A stretch of DNA of 64,000 bases. Source: Enorma phocaeensis. Its GTDB lineage: Bacteria > Actinomycetota > Coriobacteriia > Coriobacteriales > Coriobacteriaceae. Every line of letters starts with the position of its first letter. Position 1 is the stretch's first letter. Position numbers and translations under genes: made by a program. The stretch spans positions 1 to 64,000 of the forward strand of contig NZ_JACJKQ010000004.1 of NCBI RefSeq assembly GCF_016901575.1. Reading direction: 5' to 3'. Below, in pieces: positions 34,837 through 63,588 of the stretch. The notes under the pieces are model-generated. The model was given only the letters and a program-made list of their open reading frames with translations. It was not told the DNA's origin and did no database searches.

Positions 34837-35097
34837 TTAGTGTGCCGCTCGGAAATGGACAAGACCGTAGACGATAACGCTATCGGTCTTTGAATCATAC
34901 TCATAAATCAGATCGAACGGCTCCACCACCGCTTTGCGTATACCGTCCCCGTATTGGGCGCGCAACGACGCCGGAATATCGCGAGAACCGATTTCTGGAA
35001 ACGCCTCTATCGCGGCAAGCATGCGACCAAGACGATCCCGGACCTGTCCCGACCACACTGCTGCAGCATCATCGAGAAACCCTTCCGTGTACACCAT
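34837..35097 (-). CDS. RelE/ParE-type toxin
   Basis: An 86-residue protein of the RelE/ParE fold. The C-terminal half (GIRKAVVEPFDLIYEYDSKTDSVIVYGLVHFR) has the usual strand pattern R-K-x-x-x-x-x-Y-x-I-x-Y-x-x-x-x-x-x-V-x-V-x-x-x-x-H-x-R of these small toxins. It either cleaves mRNA at the ribosome or poisons gyrase; the sequence does not decide. ATG at 35097 is placed one base after the antitoxin stop codon, as expected for a coupled pair. A longer upstream extension in the same frame only overlaps the antitoxin gene and is rejected. Confidence 0.85.
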   Translation of the reverse strand: MVYTEGFLDDAAAVWSGQVRDRLGRMLAAIEAFPEIGSRDIPASLRAQYGDGIRKAVVEPFDLIYEYDSKTDSVIVYGLVHFRAAH

Positions 35098-35098
35098 C

Positions 35099-43779: not shown

Positions 43780-44580
43780 GTGGGACTTGCCGGCGAGCGC
43801 TACACCACGAGCTTCAAGTTCTACGCCGTCTTCCAGGAGAACGAGGAGTTCACGGTGCGCTCCGAATCCGCCGAGCTCGGCACGATCGTCAACCCGCCGC
43901 CCCCGGGCGAGCGCATCGCCATCGCCGGCGCGTGCTGGGTGGTGGAGGAGGTCGACTGGAAGCGGCACCTCGTCTACTGCACGCAGGTGAAGGGGCGCGT
44001 GCCCGCCTATTTTGGCGACTGCCCGGGGGATATCCACACGCACGTGCTCGAGCGCATGCGCCGCTTGCTCGCCACGCACGAAACCTATCCGTACCTGCTC
44101 GCCAACGCGCGGGCGCGCCTCGCGCAGGCGCGGCGCACGGCCGAGCTCTCGGGTGCGGCGGCAGAGCCCCTCATCAACCTGGGCGGCGACACCTGGGTCC
44201 TCATCCCCTGGCTCGGGAGCTACGGCTTCCTCGCGCTCGAGCGCCTCATCAAGATCAAGTGCGCCAAGGAGCTCGGCATCTCGGGCGTGGACGCATCGCG
44301 CCCGTACTTCCTGCAGTTCAAAATGAAGGCGGATGCCGAGACGTTCTTCCGCGTGCTCGCCGACGAGGCGGACGCCCTCGAGGACCCCATCGAACTCGTC
44401 TACCCCAGCGAGGTGCCGTACTTCGACAAGTACGACGAGCTGCTGCCCGCCGAGCTCGTGCGCAAGGGCTTCGCCGAGGGCGTGCTCGATGTCGAGGGTA
44501 TGCGCCGCTGTGTGCGGGAGTGGGGGTGGCACCTTCACCCCACGGCCTTTTCGGCATCCGGAGACGACAGCGTCATGTAA
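43417..44580 (+). CDS. Chimeric open frame: AzlC N-terminus fused to helicase C-terminus
   Basis: One uninterrupted frame of 387 codons from GTG 43417. Residues 1-120 are the membrane part of AzlC. From about residue 121 (IVGLAGERYTTSFKFYAVFQENEEFTVRSESAELG) to 372 the protein is nearly the same, residue for residue, as the C-terminal 250 residues of the helicase encoded at 61165-63588. The switch falls at CCTCATC (43773-43779), which the helicase gene also has at 62820-62826. After VREW the last 18 residues again differ from the helicase. Many synonymous base differences show this is not a recent copy. Expression is doubtful; no ribosome binding site fits GTG 43417. Confidence 0.75.
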   Translation: MRAAFPLTVPILAGFVFLGITCGIYAGSLGLPWWVPVLMSIVIFAGSAEFVVASQLAGAFDPLTTFAVVLIINARHLFYGLSMLECFRGLGRKRPYLIFGMCDETFSINYATEPPEGIDLIVGLAGERYTTSFKFYAVFQENEEFTVRSESAELGTIVNPPPPGERIAIAGACWVVEEVDWKRHLVYCTQVKGRVPAYFGDCPGDIHTHVLERMRRLLATHETYPYLLANARARLAQARRTAELSGAAAEPLINLGGDTWVLIPWLGSYGFLALERLIKIKCAKELGISGVDASRPYFLQFKMKADAETFFRVLADEADALEDPIELVYPSEVPYFDKYDELLPAELVRKGFAEGVLDVEGMRRCVREWGWHLHPTAFSASGDDSVM

Positions 44581-44687: not shown

Positions 44688-45182
44688 TTAACGCGCCTGC
44701 AGAGTGAGCCACGTGAGGGCATCAGCACTGTCCATAGCGCGCACGGGGCAGTGACGCAGAAAACACTCGTCGTTGGTAACGAGAACGTCCGCTTTGCAGC
44801 GAGTCGCCGCTGCAGCGATGAGTGAGTCTTCGAAGTCCCGGTGAAGCTCCCGGTACATACCAGCGAGCCATACGTCGGAGAAATCAATCCCCACCGGCGC
44901 AGCGAGCTCCTGCACACTCTGAACGCAGGCCCATGCTATCGTTTCTGAGCTGAGCGCATCCTCCGGCAATACTGCCCCATGATCCCTACGCGCTTGCTGT
45001 TTGAGATTGCGTGACAGGGTATAGTACAGATCCTTGACGCTCGTCACATAAAAGAACACCTCAGCGTCATGCTCGATAGCTTTGGAGAGAAGCGCTTGCG
45101 CCCGAAGGTGCATCGGCCGATTCCCGTCAAAAAGGTCGATCCATACGTTCGTGTCGAGCAGCATGCTGATCGCCTCACTCAT
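44688..45182 (-). CDS. PIN-domain toxin
   Basis: A 164-residue PIN-fold ribonuclease. The acidic active site is visible as LLDTNVWIDLFDG near the N-terminus, an internal Glu/Asp in the SSETIAWACVQSV region, and DFEDSLIAAAATRCKADVLVTNDECF near the C-terminus, the usual D-x-x-D...TND pattern. It should cleave RNA when free of its antitoxin. ATG at 45182 overlaps the antitoxin stop codon by several bases; an internal ATG at 45164 (MLLDTNVW) is possible. The antitoxin gene directly precedes it. Confidence 0.85.
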   Translation of the reverse strand: MSEAISMLLDTNVWIDLFDGNRPMHLRAQALLSKAIEHDAEVFFYVTSVKDLYYTLSRNLKQQARRDHGAVLPEDALSSETIAWACVQSVQELAAPVGIDFSDVWLAGMYRELHRDFEDSLIAAAATRCKADVLVTNDECFLRHCPVRAMDSADALTWLTLQAR

Positions 45183-45621
45183 TGATGAGGCCCTTCTCAA
45201 CAAAATGTTCGGTCATGAACTGGTCGTAGTACTCGCGGTCTGAGAGCGCGCCGAGGTCGGGCCTTGCACCCGATAGCCCGTACTGCGCACAGAGCGTGTC
45301 GACGAGCGTCGCGCTGCGCTCCAACGCATCTTTGCGGCGCTCACGTTCAGCCATCTTATCGGCAGCGACATCGTCATCTGCCGCGGAGAGCGCCTCCCGA
45401 ATCTTTTCCGGGTCGTCACGATAGCGCCTCGCTAGATCCCAGAGCGCGCCGATTGCCTGCGTGGGGGTATACCCCGCCTCCGCGAGCCCCGCATCGCCGG
45501 CCTTCTTGAGATCGGCATCGATGTGCGCATTGACCTGTGCTTTCTGCTGTCTGCAAGCGCGCGTAAACCGCACTTGCGTCGTCTGCGCGCACTCGGACCG
45601 CATCGCCGACGCTTCGGACAT
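45175..45621 (-). CDS. RelB/DinJ-like antitoxin
   Basis: A 148-residue protein. The part KAQVNAHIDADLKKAGDAGLAEAGYTPTQAIGALWDLARRYRDDPEKI has the ribbon-helix-helix layout of RelB/DinJ antitoxins: a strand, then two helices with AGYTPTQAI between. A charged helical tail (ADKMAERERRKDALERS) follows, which would contact the toxin. GAGGAGG lies 5 bases before ATG at 45621. RelB/DinJ antitoxins usually partner YafQ/RelE toxins; here the downstream gene is a PIN-domain toxin. Confidence 0.8.
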   Translation of the reverse strand: MSEASAMRSECAQTTQVRFTRACRQQKAQVNAHIDADLKKAGDAGLAEAGYTPTQAIGALWDLARRYRDDPEKIREALSAADDDVAADKMAERERRKDALERSATLVDTLCAQYGLSGARPDLGALSDREYYDQFMTEHFVEKGLINE

Positions 45622-56159: not shown

Positions 56160-56256
56160 GAGGGCCTGAAGGGGCGGCAGGACGGCATCCCGAAGGCAAG
56201 GCCGCGCCTCCCGGACAGGATGCACGGCATATAAAATAGAACGCGTGTTTGGTTGA

Positions 56257-56265
56257 TGCTATACT
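56257..56265 (+). promoter_or_regulatory. Extended -10 promoter of the TerB-domain gene
   Basis: TGC-TATACT at 56257-56265 is a near-consensus extended -10 element 38 bases before the GTG start of the defence operon. No clear -35 at 17 bases. A 25-base AT-rich segment (ATATAAAATAGAA) lies just upstream. Confidence 0.55.
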
Positions 56266-56302
56266 GGTGGGATTGACCGACAAGTGCCCAGGAGGCGAGA
56301 CC

Positions 56303-58450
56303 GTGGCGCGAAACCCCGCCGACATCGAGCAGCTCATTGCGCGCATCAACGCAAGCGAGCGCCTGCGCGCCAACTCGCGCTACTCCGCGGAGGTCTATCG
56401 GGACGAGCCCATCGTGCGCACGGGCCGCCAGCTCATGAAAGAGCGCGAGGCGGCAGGGCGCCCGAAGCAGGCGAGCGCGCCTGTCAAACGCGGCGGGCAG
56501 CCGGCGGCGACGGCCGGGGCCGCATGGCAGGCGAGTGCGTCGGCCACGCGCGGCAAGGACTTCCGGGAGGCCCGGCAGGAACGCATCCCCCTCGGCGCTA
56601 TGGGCGGGAGAGTCACATCGGCCGGGCATGCAGCGGTCTCGGGCGGCACGGGCCCCGAGGTCTTGGCCCCTCAGGCACCGAGCAGGGCCTTCCAGCTTGG
56701 GCCCCAGGCACATCGCTATCAAGAGATGCGGGGCATATCGCGCTGGCAGGAATCCGGCGGCCGCGGCAGATGGCTCACCGAGGCTGAGCTCTTCGTCCGA
56801 CAGGCGCGCCTCATGGCCGACATGGAGGACGACCACCCTTATCACGGCACCTTCAAGTCGTACTTCCCCACCTACAACGCCATGAGCGACCAGCAGCTGC
56901 GCGGCTACTTCACCTGGCGCGCGGCCGTTCGGCGCGGCGACATCCAGGAGACCTCCCTTTCATTTGCCTACGTCTACCTGTATGAGCTCATCAACGGCAT
57001 CGGAGTTGCAGACCCACAGGAAGGCTTTTCGCGTCTGCACGGCTTCTGGCAGGCATACCGCACCTTCTCGCCCGAGATCGACCGCTTTGTGCGGGTGTGG
57101 CTGCGCGATTACGTGGTTTTCTATGGCCTCGACCCCAAGCTTCTCGCCGACGACAAGACCCTTGGATTCGACCGCGCGCTCATCGAGCTTCGCGAGCTCT
57201 CTTGCCTGCTCGATAGCCCTGACTCGCCAGCCGCCGCGATGCCCGTGACGCCGGGCGGCCCCGCGGCGAGCCCTGCGGGCGCGTCGCTCCGGAAAGGGGC
57301 GTCGAAAAAGACAAGGCGCGGCCCCGCCCTCCCCCTTCCCGTCGACGAGGCGCTGGAAACCCGGCTGCTTGAAAGCATCGACGCGCTCTCAACCTACCGC
57401 ATCCGCCTGTCGCGCCTGTACAAGGACCATCCCGACGACCTGCGGCATGTCGCATGCGCCGTCTATGTCCGCATGCTGGAGTACTATCGACGCAACCGAA
57501 AAAGCGGCATGCTGGAGAGCCTGTTTGGAAAGGAGGCGACCATGCCCTACACCATGTTCGCCTCCGCCGTGTTCTGCCCCGAGAGCCCGCATCCCGACGC
57601 CTTGGTCGAGCTCGACCCCATCCACAGCTATCGCTGCGAGCGAGGGCTGTGGACATGCACCCGCGTCTTCGGCACGCGCGAGAAAAACGCCCGCCTGGGA
57701 TCCATCATGCGCGCCTGCGACCGCATGCTGCGCGACGCGATGGGATACCCCTATGCGCTCAAGGCGCGGCCAGAGCCAAAATACCTCGAGCGCATCATAG
57801 ACCGCGAGGCGACCGAGTGGCTGGCATGGAAGAGCGCCCATGCTCCCCGGGTGATCGACATCGACCTGTCCAAGCTCTCGGGCATTCGCAGCGCCGCCGC
57901 AGAGACCCGCGAGGCGCTGCTCATCGACGAGGAGCGCGAGGGCGGCACACCGGCATCCGCACCGATGCCCGCCGCTGCGGCGCCGTCTAGCACCTCCGCG
58001 GACGTGCCCGGACGCGCGCTCGCCACAGACGTCGGCGGCGGCAGGGGCGCCGCGGCAGCCGGGCCCCATGATGAGCCGCCAGCGGTCGCGCCCCGGGCCG
58101 GCGACGCATCCTCACCCGAGAAGGCCCTTGCCCCCGACGCTCCTGTCGCCGATGCGCCGAAGCCCCCAGAGGCCGGCTCGCCCCTCGGCGCGCCGGCCGC
58201 GGGAGCACCGGTGCCGCCCGCCGACGGGGACACCTCCCCGCTGACGGGCGAGCAGGCGGCATACCTCGCCGCCCTGCTCGAAGGCGCGCCGGCACCCGTA
58301 CCTGCCGGCACCAGCGAGGACATGTTGGTGGACGCCATCAACGAGGCGCTGTATGACGCGCTCGGCGACACCGCGATCGAATTTGGCGCCGACGGACCGC
58401 GCATCATCGAAGACTACGAGGACGACGTGAGAGGACTGATCGCCCCATGA
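56303..58450 (+). CDS. TerB-domain protein, Shango SngA-like
   Basis: A 715-residue protein with a TerB_N-type domain around residues 140-320 (ISRWQESGGRGRWLTEAELFVRQARLMADMEDDHPYHGTFKSYFPTYNAMSDQQLRGYFTWRAAVRRGD). A helical middle follows, then a Pro/Ala-rich linker of about 130 residues. A TerB_C-type end begins LTGEQAAYLAALLEG and contains LVDAINEALYDALGDTAIEFGADGPRIIEDYEDDVRGL. Together with a BrxD-like ATPase and a large helicase this is the gene set of the Shango anti-phage system. The start is a GTG with CAGGAGG 7 bases upstream. The stop overlaps the ATPase start (ATGA). How the TerB protein acts is unknown. Confidence 0.85.
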   Translation: MARNPADIEQLIARINASERLRANSRYSAEVYRDEPIVRTGRQLMKEREAAGRPKQASAPVKRGGQPAATAGAAWQASASATRGKDFREARQERIPLGAMGGRVTSAGHAAVSGGTGPEVLAPQAPSRAFQLGPQAHRYQEMRGISRWQESGGRGRWLTEAELFVRQARLMADMEDDHPYHGTFKSYFPTYNAMSDQQLRGYFTWRAAVRRGDIQETSLSFAYVYLYELINGIGVADPQEGFSRLHGFWQAYRTFSPEIDRFVRVWLRDYVVFYGLDPKLLADDKTLGFDRALIELRELSCLLDSPDSPAAAMPVTPGGPAASPAGASLRKGASKKTRRGPALPLPVDEALETRLLESIDALSTYRIRLSRLYKDHPDDLRHVACAVYVRMLEYYRRNRKSGMLESLFGKEATMPYTMFASAVFCPESPHPDALVELDPIHSYRCERGLWTCTRVFGTREKNARLGSIMRACDRMLRDAMGYPYALKARPEPKYLERIIDREATEWLAWKSAHAPRVIDIDLSKLSGIRSAAAETREALLIDEEREGGTPASAPMPAAAAPSSTSADVPGRALATDVGGGRGAAAAGPHDEPPAVAPRAGDASSPEKALAPDAPVADAPKPPEAGSPLGAPAAGAPVPPADGDTSPLTGEQAAYLAALLEGAPAPVPAGTSEDMLVDAINEALYDALGDTAIEFGADGPRIIEDYEDDVRGLIAP

Positions 58451-59916
58451 CCGATACCGTACCCGCCGCGCCGCGCGTGCCCAAACGCGTCGCCGCCGTG
58501 ATCATCAACTCGCTCAAAGGCGGCGTGGTGCCCCGCATCGGGCTACCCTACATCACCGTGGGGCGCGAGATGGAGATTCGCGCGCTGCTCACCGACCTCG
58601 ACCTCATCGCAGACGGGGGCGCCTCGTTCCGCTTCTTGGTAGGACGTTACGGCAGCGGCAAGAGCTTTCTTCTGCAGACCATCCGCACGCACGCCATGGG
58701 AGAAGGCTTCGTGGTCGCCGACGCCGACCTCTCGCCCGAGCGGCGCCTGCAGGGCGGGCAGGGCCAGGGCCTTGCCACCTATCGCGAGCTTATTCGCAAC
58801 CTTTCGACCAAGACGCGCCCCGAAGGAGGCGCGCTCACGCTGATCCTCGACCGCTGGATCTCAAATCTGCAGGCATCGGTCGCTCAGGAGCTCGCCCAAG
58901 AAGCCGCCGGGGCCGCTCCTGCCGCCGACGATGCGGCATTTGTGGCGGCAGTCGACGCGCGCATCCGCTCCGAGGTCGCCAACCTCGAAGAGATGGTCCA
59001 CGGCTTCGACTTCGCGCGCCTGCTCACCCTGTATTTCCACTCCAGCGTCACGGGAGACGACGAGACCAAGGGCCGCGTGGTCAAGTGGCTCCGCGGCGAG
59101 TATCGCACGAAGACCGAGGCCCGCCAGGAGCTCGGCGTAACCGTGATCATCGGCGACGACGACTGGTATGACTATATCAAGCTGTTCGCCCGGTTCCTCA
59201 AGGGCGCCGGCTACCGCGGCATGCTCGTGCTCGTCGACGAGCTTGTTAACCTCTACAAGATTCCCAACGCCGTGACGCGCCAGTACAACTACGAGAAGAT
59301 CCTCACCATGTATAACGACACCCTGCAGGGCAAGGCCCACTATCTGGGCGTCATCATGGGAGGCACCCCCCAGTCGATCGAGGACCGCAGGCGCGGCGTG
59401 TTTTCGTACGAGGCGCTGCGAAGCCGCCTTACGCAGGGGAGGTTTGCACGCGACGACATGCGCGACATGCTGGCGCCCATCATCCACCTGCACCCCCTCA
59501 CCTACGAGGAGCTGCTGGTTCTTGCCGAAAAGCTGCAGCAGATCCATGCCGGCTATTTTGGCTACGCCCCCAAGCTGGGCGAAGGGGACCTGGTGCGGTT
59601 CTTGCAGATCGAATTCGGCCGCGTGGGCGCCGACACCCACCTCACCCCGCGTGAGGTGATTCGCGACTTTATCGAGCTTCTCGACATCGTCTACCAGCAC
59701 CCAGAGATGTCTCCCGACAAGCTGCTCGGAGAGGTCGGCGGAGGCTTCGGCAGCATGCAGGCGGGCGCCGGGTCGCCGACGCCGTGGGGAGGGCCCGCGG
59801 CCGGGGCACCTGCCGACGCGCAGGGCGGCGCCCCCGCCACCGATGCGGCAACGCCTCTCGCAACCCCCGCGACACCGCTGCGCGACCCCGCCGCCTTCGC
59901 CGAGTTCGAACTATAG
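58447..59916 (+). CDS. BrxD-like ATPase, Shango SngB-like
   Basis: A 489-residue P-loop ATPase of the DUF2791/BrxD group. The N-terminus VAAVIINSLKGGVVPRIGLPYITVGREMEI is typical. Walker A is LVGRYGSGKSFLLQTIRTHA near residue 65 and Walker B is MLVLVDELVNLYKI near 260, followed by GVIMGGTPQSIEDRRRGVFSYEALRSRL. BrxD-type ATPases occur in BREX and in Shango; no BREX methylase, PglZ or BrxC is present, and the TerB neighbour favours Shango. The last 60 residues are a Gly/Ala/Pro-rich tail. Translationally coupled to the TerB gene by an ATGA overlap. Confidence 0.88.
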   Translation: MTDTVPAAPRVPKRVAAVIINSLKGGVVPRIGLPYITVGREMEIRALLTDLDLIADGGASFRFLVGRYGSGKSFLLQTIRTHAMGEGFVVADADLSPERRLQGGQGQGLATYRELIRNLSTKTRPEGGALTLILDRWISNLQASVAQELAQEAAGAAPAADDAAFVAAVDARIRSEVANLEEMVHGFDFARLLTLYFHSSVTGDDETKGRVVKWLRGEYRTKTEARQELGVTVIIGDDDWYDYIKLFARFLKGAGYRGMLVLVDELVNLYKIPNAVTRQYNYEKILTMYNDTLQGKAHYLGVIMGGTPQSIEDRRRGVFSYEALRSRLTQGRFARDDMRDMLAPIIHLHPLTYEELLVLAEKLQQIHAGYFGYAPKLGEGDLVRFLQIEFGRVGADTHLTPREVIRDFIELLDIVYQHPEMSPDKLLGEVGGGFGSMQAGAGSPTPWGGPAAGAPADAQGGAPATDAATPLATPATPLRDPAAFAEFEL

Positions 59917-59964
59917 CCCTCGGCCCGCGCATCCTGTGGCCACCTGATGGTACCGCGATTCTGT

Positions 59965-59993
59965 ACATAGTTAACGACATAGTTGGCTACAAT
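59965..59993 (+). promoter_or_regulatory. Promoter/operator of the inserted toxin-antitoxin module
   Basis: ACATAGTT occurs twice as a direct repeat, at 59965-59972 and 59977-59984, exactly 12 bases apart. TACAAT at 59988-59993 is a plausible -10 close to the antitoxin start at 60017. The module thus has its own AT-rich promoter inside the defence operon. Confidence 0.5.
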
Positions 59994-60016
59994 ATTGCCG
60001 AGCTAGAGGAGGCCCT

Positions 60017-60307
60017 ATGGATGCCATCTATTCAGCGACCGCGCTTCGCGACCATCCGCGCGAGGTGAAGCAAGCTGCCCGGGAACGCATCGTCCGCATC
60101 ACGGAAAACGGTCAAGGGGCGTATGTGTTCTGCTCTGAGGACGTGTTCCAGCATGCTATTGATGCTGCAGTTGACGAAGCTCTGTACGCAGAGCGTGCCA
60201 AAGAGGCGATCGCACAAGGCAGGGTCGCATACCAGCAAGGTGATTACGTCATTGGGCTCGATGCGGGACGTGCAGCCGTTGCGGCCATGAGAGCCCAGCA
60301 TGACTAG
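60017..60307 (+). CDS. Antitoxin (Phd/YefM-like), homologue of the one at 35 kb
   Basis: A 96-residue protein starting MDAIYSATALRDHPREVKQAARERIVRITENGQGAYVFCSEDVFQ. It aligns without gaps over its length with the antitoxin at 35099-35389; shared features are AIYS-AL, ITENG-A-VFCSE-VF and the A-x-x-E-A-x-YAER segment. It should bind DNA through the N-terminus and the toxin through the C-terminus. AGAGGAGG lies 4 bases before ATG. It overlaps the toxin start by 8 bases. Confidence 0.83.
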   Translation: MDAIYSATALRDHPREVKQAARERIVRITENGQGAYVFCSEDVFQHAIDAAVDEALYAERAKEAIAQGRVAYQQGDYVIGLDAGRAAVAAMRAQHD

Positions 60308-60581
60308 GATGATTCTTACCCGGCCGTTTCTAGAAGACCTCGCTCGACTGAGCGTTCAAACCGAGGAAGCAGTCTGGGAAAAGCTCGAGCTCGTCGAAGC
60401 GTTTCCCGGCGTGGGATCGTCAATATCCAATCGCATGCTGCAACGCGCCTTCGGGGCATCTTGTCTCAAAGTGGCCGTCAACGGATATGACATCATCTAT
60501 GAACGCAAGACGCGCCCTGACGACACCCAAGAAAATCTTGTAATCGTCTTGGGAATCATCGCCCAACGTACCGTTCGTTAA
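60300..60581 (+). CDS. RelE/ParE-type toxin inserted in the defence locus
   Basis: A 93-residue protein of the RelE/ParE fold: ILTRPFLEDLARLSVQTEEAVWEKLELVEAFPGVGSS, then CLKVAVNGYDIIYERKTRPDDTQENLVIVLGIIAQR, the usual strand pattern with Y-D-I-I-Y. It resembles the toxin at 34837-35097 in layout and partner. The ATG overlaps the antitoxin end. The stop codon lies exactly where a minus-strand histidinol-phosphatase fragment ends, suggesting that the module's insertion truncated that gene. Confidence 0.82.
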   Translation: MTRMILTRPFLEDLARLSVQTEEAVWEKLELVEAFPGVGSSISNRMLQRAFGASCLKVAVNGYDIIYERKTRPDDTQENLVIVLGIIAQRTVR

Positions 60582-60895
60582 CCTCGCGAGCGTTCCAGAT
60601 CGGCACCGATGGTCAAGACGCGTCCGCTGAGGTCGCGATAGAGCTCAAGGATCTCGGTGCAGGGCTGGAGGTCGGAAAGGCCGTAGCGGAAGCTCGACGT
60701 GTTGACCTCGATGCCCTTGCCGTCCGAAATGGCTCGCTCCAGAATCGCCGCGATGACATCGCGGTTGTTCTCGAAGGGATAGACCCCCTCGGGGTCATAG
60801 CGCCTGATGAGGTCCAGGTGCCCGAGCACCGAATACCCCGAGAAACGCTCCACCACGGAGAGCATCTCCTCGTAGTACTCGTCGTTATACTCGCG
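60578..60895 (-). pseudogene. hisJ: Histidinol-phosphatase (PHP family) internal fragment
   Basis: On the minus strand, REYNDEYYEEMLSVVERFSGYSVLGHLDLIRRYDPEG, then VIAAILERAISDGKGIEVNTSSFRYGLSDLQPCTEILELYRDLSGRVLTIGADLERSRG. This is the C-terminal half of PHP-type histidinol phosphatases: GHLDLIRRY and GIEVNTS are metal-site and core motifs. The normal ending (LTIGSDAH and a helix beyond) is replaced at LTIGAD by a stop at 60578, and the N-terminal half is absent. It cannot be functional. Confidence 0.72.
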
Positions 60896-61100
60896 CCGCG
60901 TCGACGTTTCACCCCCTACAGGATGAAGCGCGACACCGCCGCGCGCAAGGGGCGCGACGGGACGATTCTGCTCCGATGCCGGGCAGCATGCGTCACGCAG
61001 ACGGACCGTCCGGCCGCCTGGCGCAGCGCACTCTGCGGACGCGGGCGCGCTCGAACCATGCGGGAATCGTCGAGCGGGCCTTGAAGCCGAAATCACCGGC

Positions 61101-61126
61101 TTGCCGCGCCTGATGTGGCGTATACT
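61101..61126 (+). promoter_or_regulatory. Candidate promoter of the helicase gene
   Basis: TATACT at 61121-61126 is a strong -10 match 38 bases before the helicase start. TTGCCG at 61101-61106 is only 14 bases upstream, so the -35 is doubtful. A promoter here would let the helicase be expressed despite its separation from the other two defence genes. Confidence 0.4.
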
Positions 61127-61164
61127 AGAACTGTTGTTCGTTTTCTTGTTGAGGAGGTGCCCCC

Positions 61165-63588
61165 ATGTCGATCTTCGACCGCTATGCGCCCTTTGTGCAG
61201 GACTTCATCTATGCACACGACTGGGAAAGCCTGCGCTCGATCCAGGTCGCAGCAGGCGACGCCATCTTCAACACCGACGAGAACGTATTGCTCACCGCCT
61301 CGACCGCATCGGGCAAGACGGAGGCCGCGTTCTTCCCCATCCTCACGCTTTTCTGGGAAAACCCTCCCGCCTCGATCGGCGCCCTCTACATCGGCCCGCT
61401 CAAGGCGCTCATCAACGACCAGTTCGTCCGCCTCAACGACCTCTGCGAAGAAGCCGAGATTCCCGTGTGGCACTGGCACGGCGACGTCGCGGCGTCGCAC
61501 AAGCGACGCCTGCTGAAGCACCCATCGGGCATTCTGCAAATCACGCCCGAGTCGCTCGAGGCGCTGCTGCTGCACAAGCATATGGCCGTGCCGCGCCTCT
61601 TCTGCGACCTACGTTTCGTGGTCATCGACGAGGTCCACTCGCTCTTGCGTGGCGACCGCGGCGGCCAGACCCTGTGCCTGATCGAGCGCCTCAGCCGCAT
61701 GGCGGGGGTGAACCCGCGCCGCATCGGGCTCTCGGCCACCATCGGCGACCCCGAACGCACCGGCGCCTTCCTTTCCAGCGGCACGGGGCGCGGCTGCATC
61801 ATCCCGCGCTTCGAGGAGCCGCGGCACGTATGGCGCGTGTCCATGGAACACTTCTATGTGACCGGCCCGCAGGCAACCGAGCGCGCCCTGGAACGCTCAG
61901 ACGGCACCCAAGAGGCAGAACTGCTCGCCGTTGAGCGCGTCGGCAGCGAAGGCACCCCGCCTGGGCTGCCGGGCGATGCCTCTGACACGGCCTTTGGCGG
62001 AACGCGGGTCCCCCCGAGCCCTTCAGACGCCGCCGGAAAGGGCGAGGCACAGGCAGCCATGGGCGAGGTGGACATCCCGCCCGTCGACGAGCAGTCGCTG
62101 CTTGCACCCACCGACGCCGCGCCGCGCGACGCCGACCCGGGCATCGGCTACATATTTGAGCGCACGCGCGGCCATAAGTGCCTCGTCTTCTCCAACTCGC
62201 GCGAAGAGGCAGAGGCCGTGTGCACGATGCTGCGCAGCTACTGCGAGGCGAACCACGAACCCGACCGCTTCCTCATCCATCACGGCAACATCTCGTCCGC
62301 GCTGCGCGAGTCAGCCGAGGACGTCATGCGCGATGACGAGCGGCTGGACACCACCGTCACCACTGCGACGCTTGAGCTCGGCATCGACATCGGCCGTCTC
62401 GAGCGCGCCTTCCAAATCGACGCGCCCTTCACCGTGTCGAGCTTCTTGCAGCGCATGGGCCGCACGGGACGCCGCGACCTGCCACCCGAGATGCACTTCG
62501 TCATGCGCGAGGAGCAGCCTGAGCCGCGCACGACCATGCCCGAAACCATCCCCTGGAAGCTGCTGCAGGGCATCGCGCTCGTTGAGCTCTATCGCGAAGA
62601 GAAGTGGGTCGAGCCGCCGCAGCTCGACCGTCTGCCATACAGCCTGCTCTACCATCAGACCATGGCGGTCCTCGCCAGCACCGGCGAGCTGTCGCCGGCA
62701 GAGCTCGCCCAGCGCGTGCTGACGCTTTCGTACTTCCACCGCGTCACGGCGGACGACTTCCGTGCGCTGCTGCGCCACCTCCTTGAAACCGACCAGCTCG
62801 AGCGAACCGAAGCGGGCGGCCTCATCATAGGGCTTGCCGGCGAGCGCTACACCAACTCGTTCAAGTTCTACGCCGTGTTCCAGGAAAACGAGGAGTTCAC
62901 CGTGCGCAGCGACTCCGCCGAGCTGGGCACCATCGTGAACCCGCCGCCGCCCGGCGAGCGCATCGCCATTGCCGGCCATTGCTGGGTTGTCGAAGAGGTC
63001 GACTGGAAGCGCCACCTCGTGTTTGCCACGCAGGTGAAGGGGCGCGTGCCGGCATACTTCGGCGACTGCCCGGGCGATATCAACACGCACATCCTCGAAC
63101 GCATGCGCCGCGTGCTCGCCGAGCATGAGACATACCCCTACCTGCTGGCAAACGCGCGGGCGCGCCTTGCTCAGGCGCGGCGAACCGCCGAGATATCGGG
63201 CGCTGCCGCGCGCCCGCTCATCAACCTCGGCGGCGAGACCTGGGTGCTTTTCCCCTGGCTTGGCAGCTATGCGTTTCTGGCCCTGGAGCGCCTGCTCAAG
63301 ATCAAGTGCGCCGGCGAGCTGGGACTCAAGGGGCTCGATGCGTCACGCCCCTATTTCCTGCAGTTCAAGATGAAGGCAGACGAAGAGACGTTCTTCCAGG
63401 TTGTTGCGGATGAGGCGGCACGCGACTTCGACCCTATCGAACTCGTCTATCCAGGCGAGGTGCCCTACTTCGACAAATACGATGAGCTGCTGCCCGCAGA
63501 ACTCGTCCGCAAAGGGTTTGCCGAAGGCGTGCTCGACATCGAAGGCATGCGCCGCCGCGTGCAAGAGTGGACGGACGCGCGCCTATAG
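61165..63588 (+). CDS. Lhr-like DEAD/DEAH helicase, Shango SngC-like
   Basis: An 807-residue superfamily 2 helicase. Walker A is TASTASGKTEAAFFPIL near residue 47, the DExH box is VVIDEVHSLLRGDRGGQ near 155, motif III is GLSATIGDPE, and motif VI is QRMGRTGRRDLPPE near 435. A low-complexity insertion at about 255-325 separates the two RecA-like lobes. The last 250 residues (from IIGLAGERYTNSFKFYAVFQENEEF) form a family-specific C-terminal domain, also found in the chimera at 43417-44580. GAGGAGG precedes ATG. Third component of the Shango-like set, though 1.25 kb from the ATPase gene. Confidence 0.88.
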   Translation: MSIFDRYAPFVQDFIYAHDWESLRSIQVAAGDAIFNTDENVLLTASTASGKTEAAFFPILTLFWENPPASIGALYIGPLKALINDQFVRLNDLCEEAEIPVWHWHGDVAASHKRRLLKHPSGILQITPESLEALLLHKHMAVPRLFCDLRFVVIDEVHSLLRGDRGGQTLCLIERLSRMAGVNPRRIGLSATIGDPERTGAFLSSGTGRGCIIPRFEEPRHVWRVSMEHFYVTGPQATERALERSDGTQEAELLAVERVGSEGTPPGLPGDASDTAFGGTRVPPSPSDAAGKGEAQAAMGEVDIPPVDEQSLLAPTDAAPRDADPGIGYIFERTRGHKCLVFSNSREEAEAVCTMLRSYCEANHEPDRFLIHHGNISSALRESAEDVMRDDERLDTTVTTATLELGIDIGRLERAFQIDAPFTVSSFLQRMGRTGRRDLPPEMHFVMREEQPEPRTTMPETIPWKLLQGIALVELYREEKWVEPPQLDRLPYSLLYHQTMAVLASTGELSPAELAQRVLTLSYFHRVTADDFRALLRHLLETDQLERTEAGGLIIGLAGERYTNSFKFYAVFQENEEFTVRSDSAELGTIVNPPPPGERIAIAGHCWVVEEVDWKRHLVFATQVKGRVPAYFGDCPGDINTHILERMRRVLAEHETYPYLLANARARLAQARRTAEISGAAARPLINLGGETWVLFPWLGSYAFLALERLLKIKCAGELGLKGLDASRPYFLQFKMKADEETFFQVVADEAARDFDPIELVYPGEVPYFDKYDELLPAELVRKGFAEGVLDIEGMRRRVQEWTDARL

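Follow-up and report, generated by a model that had tools for sequence, protein, structure and literature searches.

A predicted toxin-antitoxin module inserted into the Shango locus of Enorma phocaeensis, ahead of an older and probably LexA-regulated sngC promoter

The Shango locus of Enorma phocaeensis has likely received a stand-alone type II toxin-antitoxin module, which would have inserted between sngB and a pre-existing, probably LexA-regulated sngC promoter and would be an ordinary autoregulated module. Comparison with related genomes and known structures revealed the presence of the pair, its fold, its inserted state, the older sngC promoter and a conserved box at this promoter; toxicity, autoregulation, binding of LexA and induction of SngC by DNA damage are predicted from these features. 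The possible SOS control of the Shango helicase may be the more interesting result than the toxin-antitoxin insertion.

The analysed stretch, referred to as the window, comprises the first 64,000 nt of contig NZ_JACJKQ010000004.1. PADLOC detected a full set of SngA, SngB and SngC in it (Table 1). As the original prediction had described, the first two genes overlap by 4 bp and the helicase gene lies about 1.25 kb downstream, behind a toxin-antitoxin pair and a hisJ fragment. The distance from SngB to SngC is 1,248 bp, and with the pair and a promoter of its own in front of it, SngC does not form one operon of adjacent genes with SngA and SngB. This split layout recurs in related Shango loci. 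Another rearranged Shango layout was seen in two Clostridia loci (L081, L083), in which SngA is located downstream of SngC in the opposite orientation. The GC content of the pair and its spacer is 52-59%, compared with 66-69% for SngA, SngB and SngC.

Table 1. Features of the Shango locus (positions of the window) and the evidence for their assignment
Feature	Position	Strand	Evidence and remarks
SngA (TerB_N/TerB_C protein)	56249-58450	+	PADLOC 3.3e-73; Pfam TerB_N 5e-33, TerB_C 1.4e-11
SngB (BrxC/D-like ATPase)	58447-59916	+	PADLOC 6.5e-184; Pfam BrxC_BrxD 5.8e-165
Spacer with likely promoter/operator of the pair	59917-60016	+	TGTACATA at 59962; alignment with L033 and G066 upstream regions
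Antitoxin, Phd/YefM-like, 96 aa	60017-60307	+	Pfam PhdYeFM_antitox 0.006, below curated cut-off; AF2 pLDDT 88
Toxin, RelE/ParE fold, 93 aa	60300-60581	+	Pfam ParE_toxin 0.006, below curated cut-off; AF2 pLDDT 91, pTM 0.80
hisJ-family internal fragment, pseudogene	60606-60901	-	TIGR01856 5.8e-17; blastn 76-81% to intact genes of relatives
Stretch between hisJ piece and SngC promoter	60902-61117		216 bp
SngC own promoter and ribosome-binding site	61117-61164	+	TATACT at about 61121, GAGGAGG; 46 bp conserved with L017/G002
LexA/SOS-type box GAACTGTTGTTC	61128-61139	+	25 bp before SngC start codon; overlaps promoter
SngC (DEAD/DEAH helicase)	61165-63588	+	PADLOC 1.4e-268

The two ORFs of the pair are small, with the antitoxin first and an overlap of 8 bp. 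Sequence models recognised both proteins only weakly, and a PDB sequence search with the toxin profile gave no match. AlphaFold models of toxin and antitoxin, built on alignments from each protein's own relatives, were compared with known structures using Foldseek. The toxin model was most similar to RelE (E 2.6e-4, TM 0.72) and also matched ParE (E 8e-4), with TM values of 0.6-0.73 against RelE/ParE toxins. For the N-terminal part of the antitoxin model YefM/Phd was the best match (prob 1.0, E 0.0065), the TM of the whole chain being only about 0.4. These models agree with the RelE/ParE-type pair that had been proposed, and indicate that the pair is a type II toxin-antitoxin module of a probably Phd/YefM-like antitoxin and a putatively toxic RelE/ParE-fold protein, whose target may be mRNA or gyrase. 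Both ORFs are intact and can be aligned with those of relatives from start to stop; the conserved residues and the ribosome-binding site are kept. TGTACA-type elements precede the antitoxin in all three upstream regions compared, those of the window, of locus L033 described below and of the free-standing copy in G066, and their presence also in a free-standing copy would fit self-regulation of the module. The spacer in front of the antitoxin presumably acts as promoter; a scan of positions 59700-61300 with the sigma-70 consensus detected no promoter and no terminator.

Comparison with two congeners revealed Shango loci without the pair, with SngB-SngC gaps of 93 bp in G001 (locus L041; SngC 91% identical) and 237 bp in G002 (locus L017; SngC 85% identical). 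An orthologous pair, without hisJ, was found exactly between SngB and SngC in locus L033 of another genus (same contig as G056). In the aligned part the antitoxins of the window and L033 are about 67-70% and the toxins about 55-57% identical. The near neighbour of this locus, L035 (89-92% nt identity), shows an empty site with an 8-bp SngB-SngC gap. L033 retains the old sngC leader (GAACGACCATGG), which is followed by an insert of 653 bp; the insert is bounded by ATGG, and these four bases recur at the SngC start and could represent a target duplication or microhomology. Tight junctions of this kind (6-12 bp) recur commonly in the Shango loci of other Coriobacteriia and of Clostridia, so that a short gap is probably the ancestral state and L033 the locus that gained the insert. 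Together, the comparisons with congeners and with another genus support the proposed insertion of the window pair into the Shango locus; a pair-free strain of the species itself was not among the genomes found.

Of 64 loci in which the distance from sngB to sngC was measured, only two carry the pair at this position. Among 397 genomes searched within the order, seven further close copies were detected outside Shango (G066, G186, G151, G182, G188, G109 and G116), close meaning an antitoxin identity of at least about 60% (60-70% in these seven), and none of them has SngB or SngC within 1.5 kb. A survey for the same insertion thus finds it in another genus, but finds the pair away from Shango as well, and not at hisJ. 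The likeness of the window pair to the free-standing copy in G151 (antitoxin 70%, toxin 55%) equals that to the embedded pair of L033. The viral contigs and plasmids searched contained no relatives of toxin or antitoxin, which speaks against phage or plasmid carriage of the pair. Six neighbourhoods of free-standing copies, searched for defence genes, gave only AlbA/Schlafen-like proteins whose partial matches to profiles of long Argonaute systems were unconvincing.

With two of the roughly nine close copies, this one gene interval holds more than expected from random landing, and the two embedded copies form a weak clade (support 91/81, below the starred level, with long branches), so that they may have a common embedded origin or be kept there by selection. 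The pair might accordingly have entered a common ancestor of the two genera a single time, or have moved from one genus to the other with the locus, and later been lost in others, as the sister position of the two pairs would suggest. We consider this unlikely, because the tight 8-bp junction of L035 and the leader relic before the L033 insert point to a recent gain in L033.

The original prediction suggested that the pair may act as an embedded guard, the toxin being freed if a phage removes or shuts down the locus. For this, the antitoxin would have to come from the Shango transcript, or run out once Shango is gone or silenced by a phage, and the toxin would then kill or arrest the cell. Type II modules punish loss of their own DNA, so that some stabilisation is expected of any such pair. 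The same interval is moreover used in two genera, the toxin stop lies only 12 bp before SngC in L033, and 93% of bootstrap trees unite the window and L033 copies. These points are set against congeners that have the same Shango without the pair, and against close relatives that are free-standing and preceded by similar operator elements; the pair also has an operator/promoter region of its own. Toxin and antitoxin appear to be one self-contained cassette and no feature of the sequence therefore ties the antitoxin to the Sng proteins. In CreTA, a guard of CRISPR-Cas, the antidote by contrast requires the guarded defence complex, Cascade (PMC9458426). SngC, finally, is encoded by 66 of the 67 family genomes, including all 59 of good quality, and the Shango locus lies at a conserved chromosomal place; SngC is a core gene in the family, not an island gene, and would hardly need an addiction module for its persistence. 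We therefore regard a guard function of the pair as unsupported and improbable.

The hisJ sequence on the minus strand had been described as truncated, and it is so at both ends: this internal fragment is without the N-terminal half and about 36 of the last residues of the intact proteins of relatives (about 278 aa). It is the sole hisJ copy in the genome of the window. The fragment had also been thought to end at the last base of the toxin gene, suggesting that the module arrived with hisJ or cut into it. The similarity to hisJ, however, ends 24 bp before the toxin stop, and the minus-strand ORF and the toxin share their stop by accident, because the final toxin codons CGT TAA contain the palindrome TTAA, a stop on both strands. 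On the opposite flank of the pair no hisJ sequence was found, and with the hisJ-free pair of L033 this argues against an origin of the module at hisJ. The genes flanking hisJ in the congener G002 occupy dispersed positions in the genome of the window (G000), which marks the fragment as a relic of rearrangement. That the pair next to this dead gene is itself inert debris, a non-functional passenger of the same rearrangement, is barely credible in view of its intact ORFs, conserved residues and confidently predicted folds.

An alignment of the 46 bp preceding SngC, TATACT included, showed a match with locus L017 of G002, which has no insert. The SngC promoter is therefore older than the insertion, and the view that the helicase had newly gained it is not supported. 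The LexA-type box is common to both loci, and the window contains no exact GAACN4GTTC other than GAACTGTTGTTC. The recA promoters of 30 out of 30 family genomes carry CGAACN4GTTCG 100-111 bp before the profile match, and the same box motif is found in the lexA promoters of the family as NGAACNNNTGTTCG. In the 500 bp before SngC an exact box is present at 18 of 78 related loci, compared with 0.3 expected from the rate of the box elsewhere in those same loci (binomial P 6e-27, a value that overstates the case since the loci are related). The boxes before SngC vary in their central four bases and in position and belong to several lineages; the C. aerofaciens group and loci with 6-12 bp gaps have no box before SngC. 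This recurrence suggests that the SngC promoter probably belongs to the LexA (SOS) regulon, with putative LexA binding and induction by damage. The simplest reading is that SngC turned into an SOS-controlled unit in several lineages. We found no prior report of an SOS-controlled SngC in the literature, of which our coverage is incomplete.

In the SngB-SngC interval of L032 (7097-7558), and likewise in L037 and L053 and similarly in L038, a very small hydrophobic ORF (MLAALTRLLCAAAILLALVIILILLIG) lies behind a LexA-type box and recalls SOS-induced small membrane peptides such as TisB. Four loci (L049, L050, L051, L094) display a LexA-type box before SngC, with one mismatch in L049, but neither SngA nor SngB within the preceding 10 kb; their SngB lies elsewhere in the genome, so that the Shango genes are unlinked.

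Other species carry different inserts between SngB and SngC. In the Collinsella tanakaei group and others the insert is a FeFe-hydrogenase-like gene with an ABC transporter (about 5-7 kb); further examples are a pyridoxamine-oxidase-like gene (PNPOx), a LytTR protein and an AAA_14/DUF4143 ATPase. The interval would tolerate inserts because sngC is a transcription unit of its own in this lineage, and as the SngC promoter was already present, an insertion need not have broken the locus.

Elsewhere in the window, positions 38005-44523 are 88-98% identical to a contig of Candidatus Coprousia avicola (G052:C44), a segment apparently obtained by horizontal transfer. Its sequence passes directly from within azlC to the final third of the SngC of Candidatus Coprousia avicola (97%); some 15.7 kb, with most of a second Shango, have been lost at this jump and an in-frame AzlC-SngC fusion ORF is left. 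The SngC fragment is adjoined by a PIN-domain (VapC-like) gene at 44688-45203, relatives of which lie directly downstream of SngC in L021, L032, L037 and L042. The window also contains, at 34858-35389 on the minus strand, another, more divergent pair of Phd/YefM-RelE type (antitoxin 43%, toxin 32-36%), which in the tree of the pairs is identical in sequence to copies in G055 and G059 of the same family.

In the favoured reading, that of a stand-alone insertion, a module with its own promoter and operator would have entered the sngB-sngC interval together with or beside the dead hisJ-family piece. It would have landed ahead of the older sngC promoter, with sngC being transcribed independently, and the pair would act as an ordinary autoregulated addiction or stress module that at most stabilises its neighbourhood. 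Location within a defence operon does not by itself make a toxin-antitoxin pair a guard, and the relatives of this pair point to insertion at a permissive place. On a wider reading, for which we see the balance as even, SngC has been uncoupled from SngAB and come under LexA control in several Coriobacteriaceae lineages, with a core Shango that would be completed only after DNA damage (e.g. by phage); the freed interval would repeatedly collect modules, including such pairs in two genera. If the SOS box before the defence helicase works as such in many species, Shango would be linked to DNA-damage sensing, and the Shango genes of this family may have a role in DNA repair no less than in phage defence.

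The window pair resembles known type II systems (YefM-YoeB, RelBE, ParDE) in the antitoxin being first, in its overlapping small genes, the RelE/ParE fold, the probable Phd/YefM-type N-terminal domain and the TGTACA-type element; it differs in being too distant for Pfam cut-offs and in its location in a defence locus. With Shango as described (SngABC; PMC10250203) the locus shares all three genes, with strong PADLOC matches, and the SngA-SngB overlap. Anti-phage activity has been demonstrated for the Shango of P. aeruginosa (PMC10250203), whereas the locus of the window is known from its sequence. It is also interrupted by 1.25 kb, its SngC is preceded by a separate promoter carrying a LexA-type box, and it is a core locus at a conserved place in the chromosome and not in a defence island. 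Similar to CreTA, a toxin-antitoxin pair lies physically within a defence locus; unlike CreTA, the toxin and protein antitoxin of the window form, as judged from sequence, a complete cassette with free-standing relatives. The GAACN4GTTC before SngC, finally, matches the recA and lexA boxes of the family as expected for a LexA/SOS regulon, but its putative target is the helicase of a defence system.
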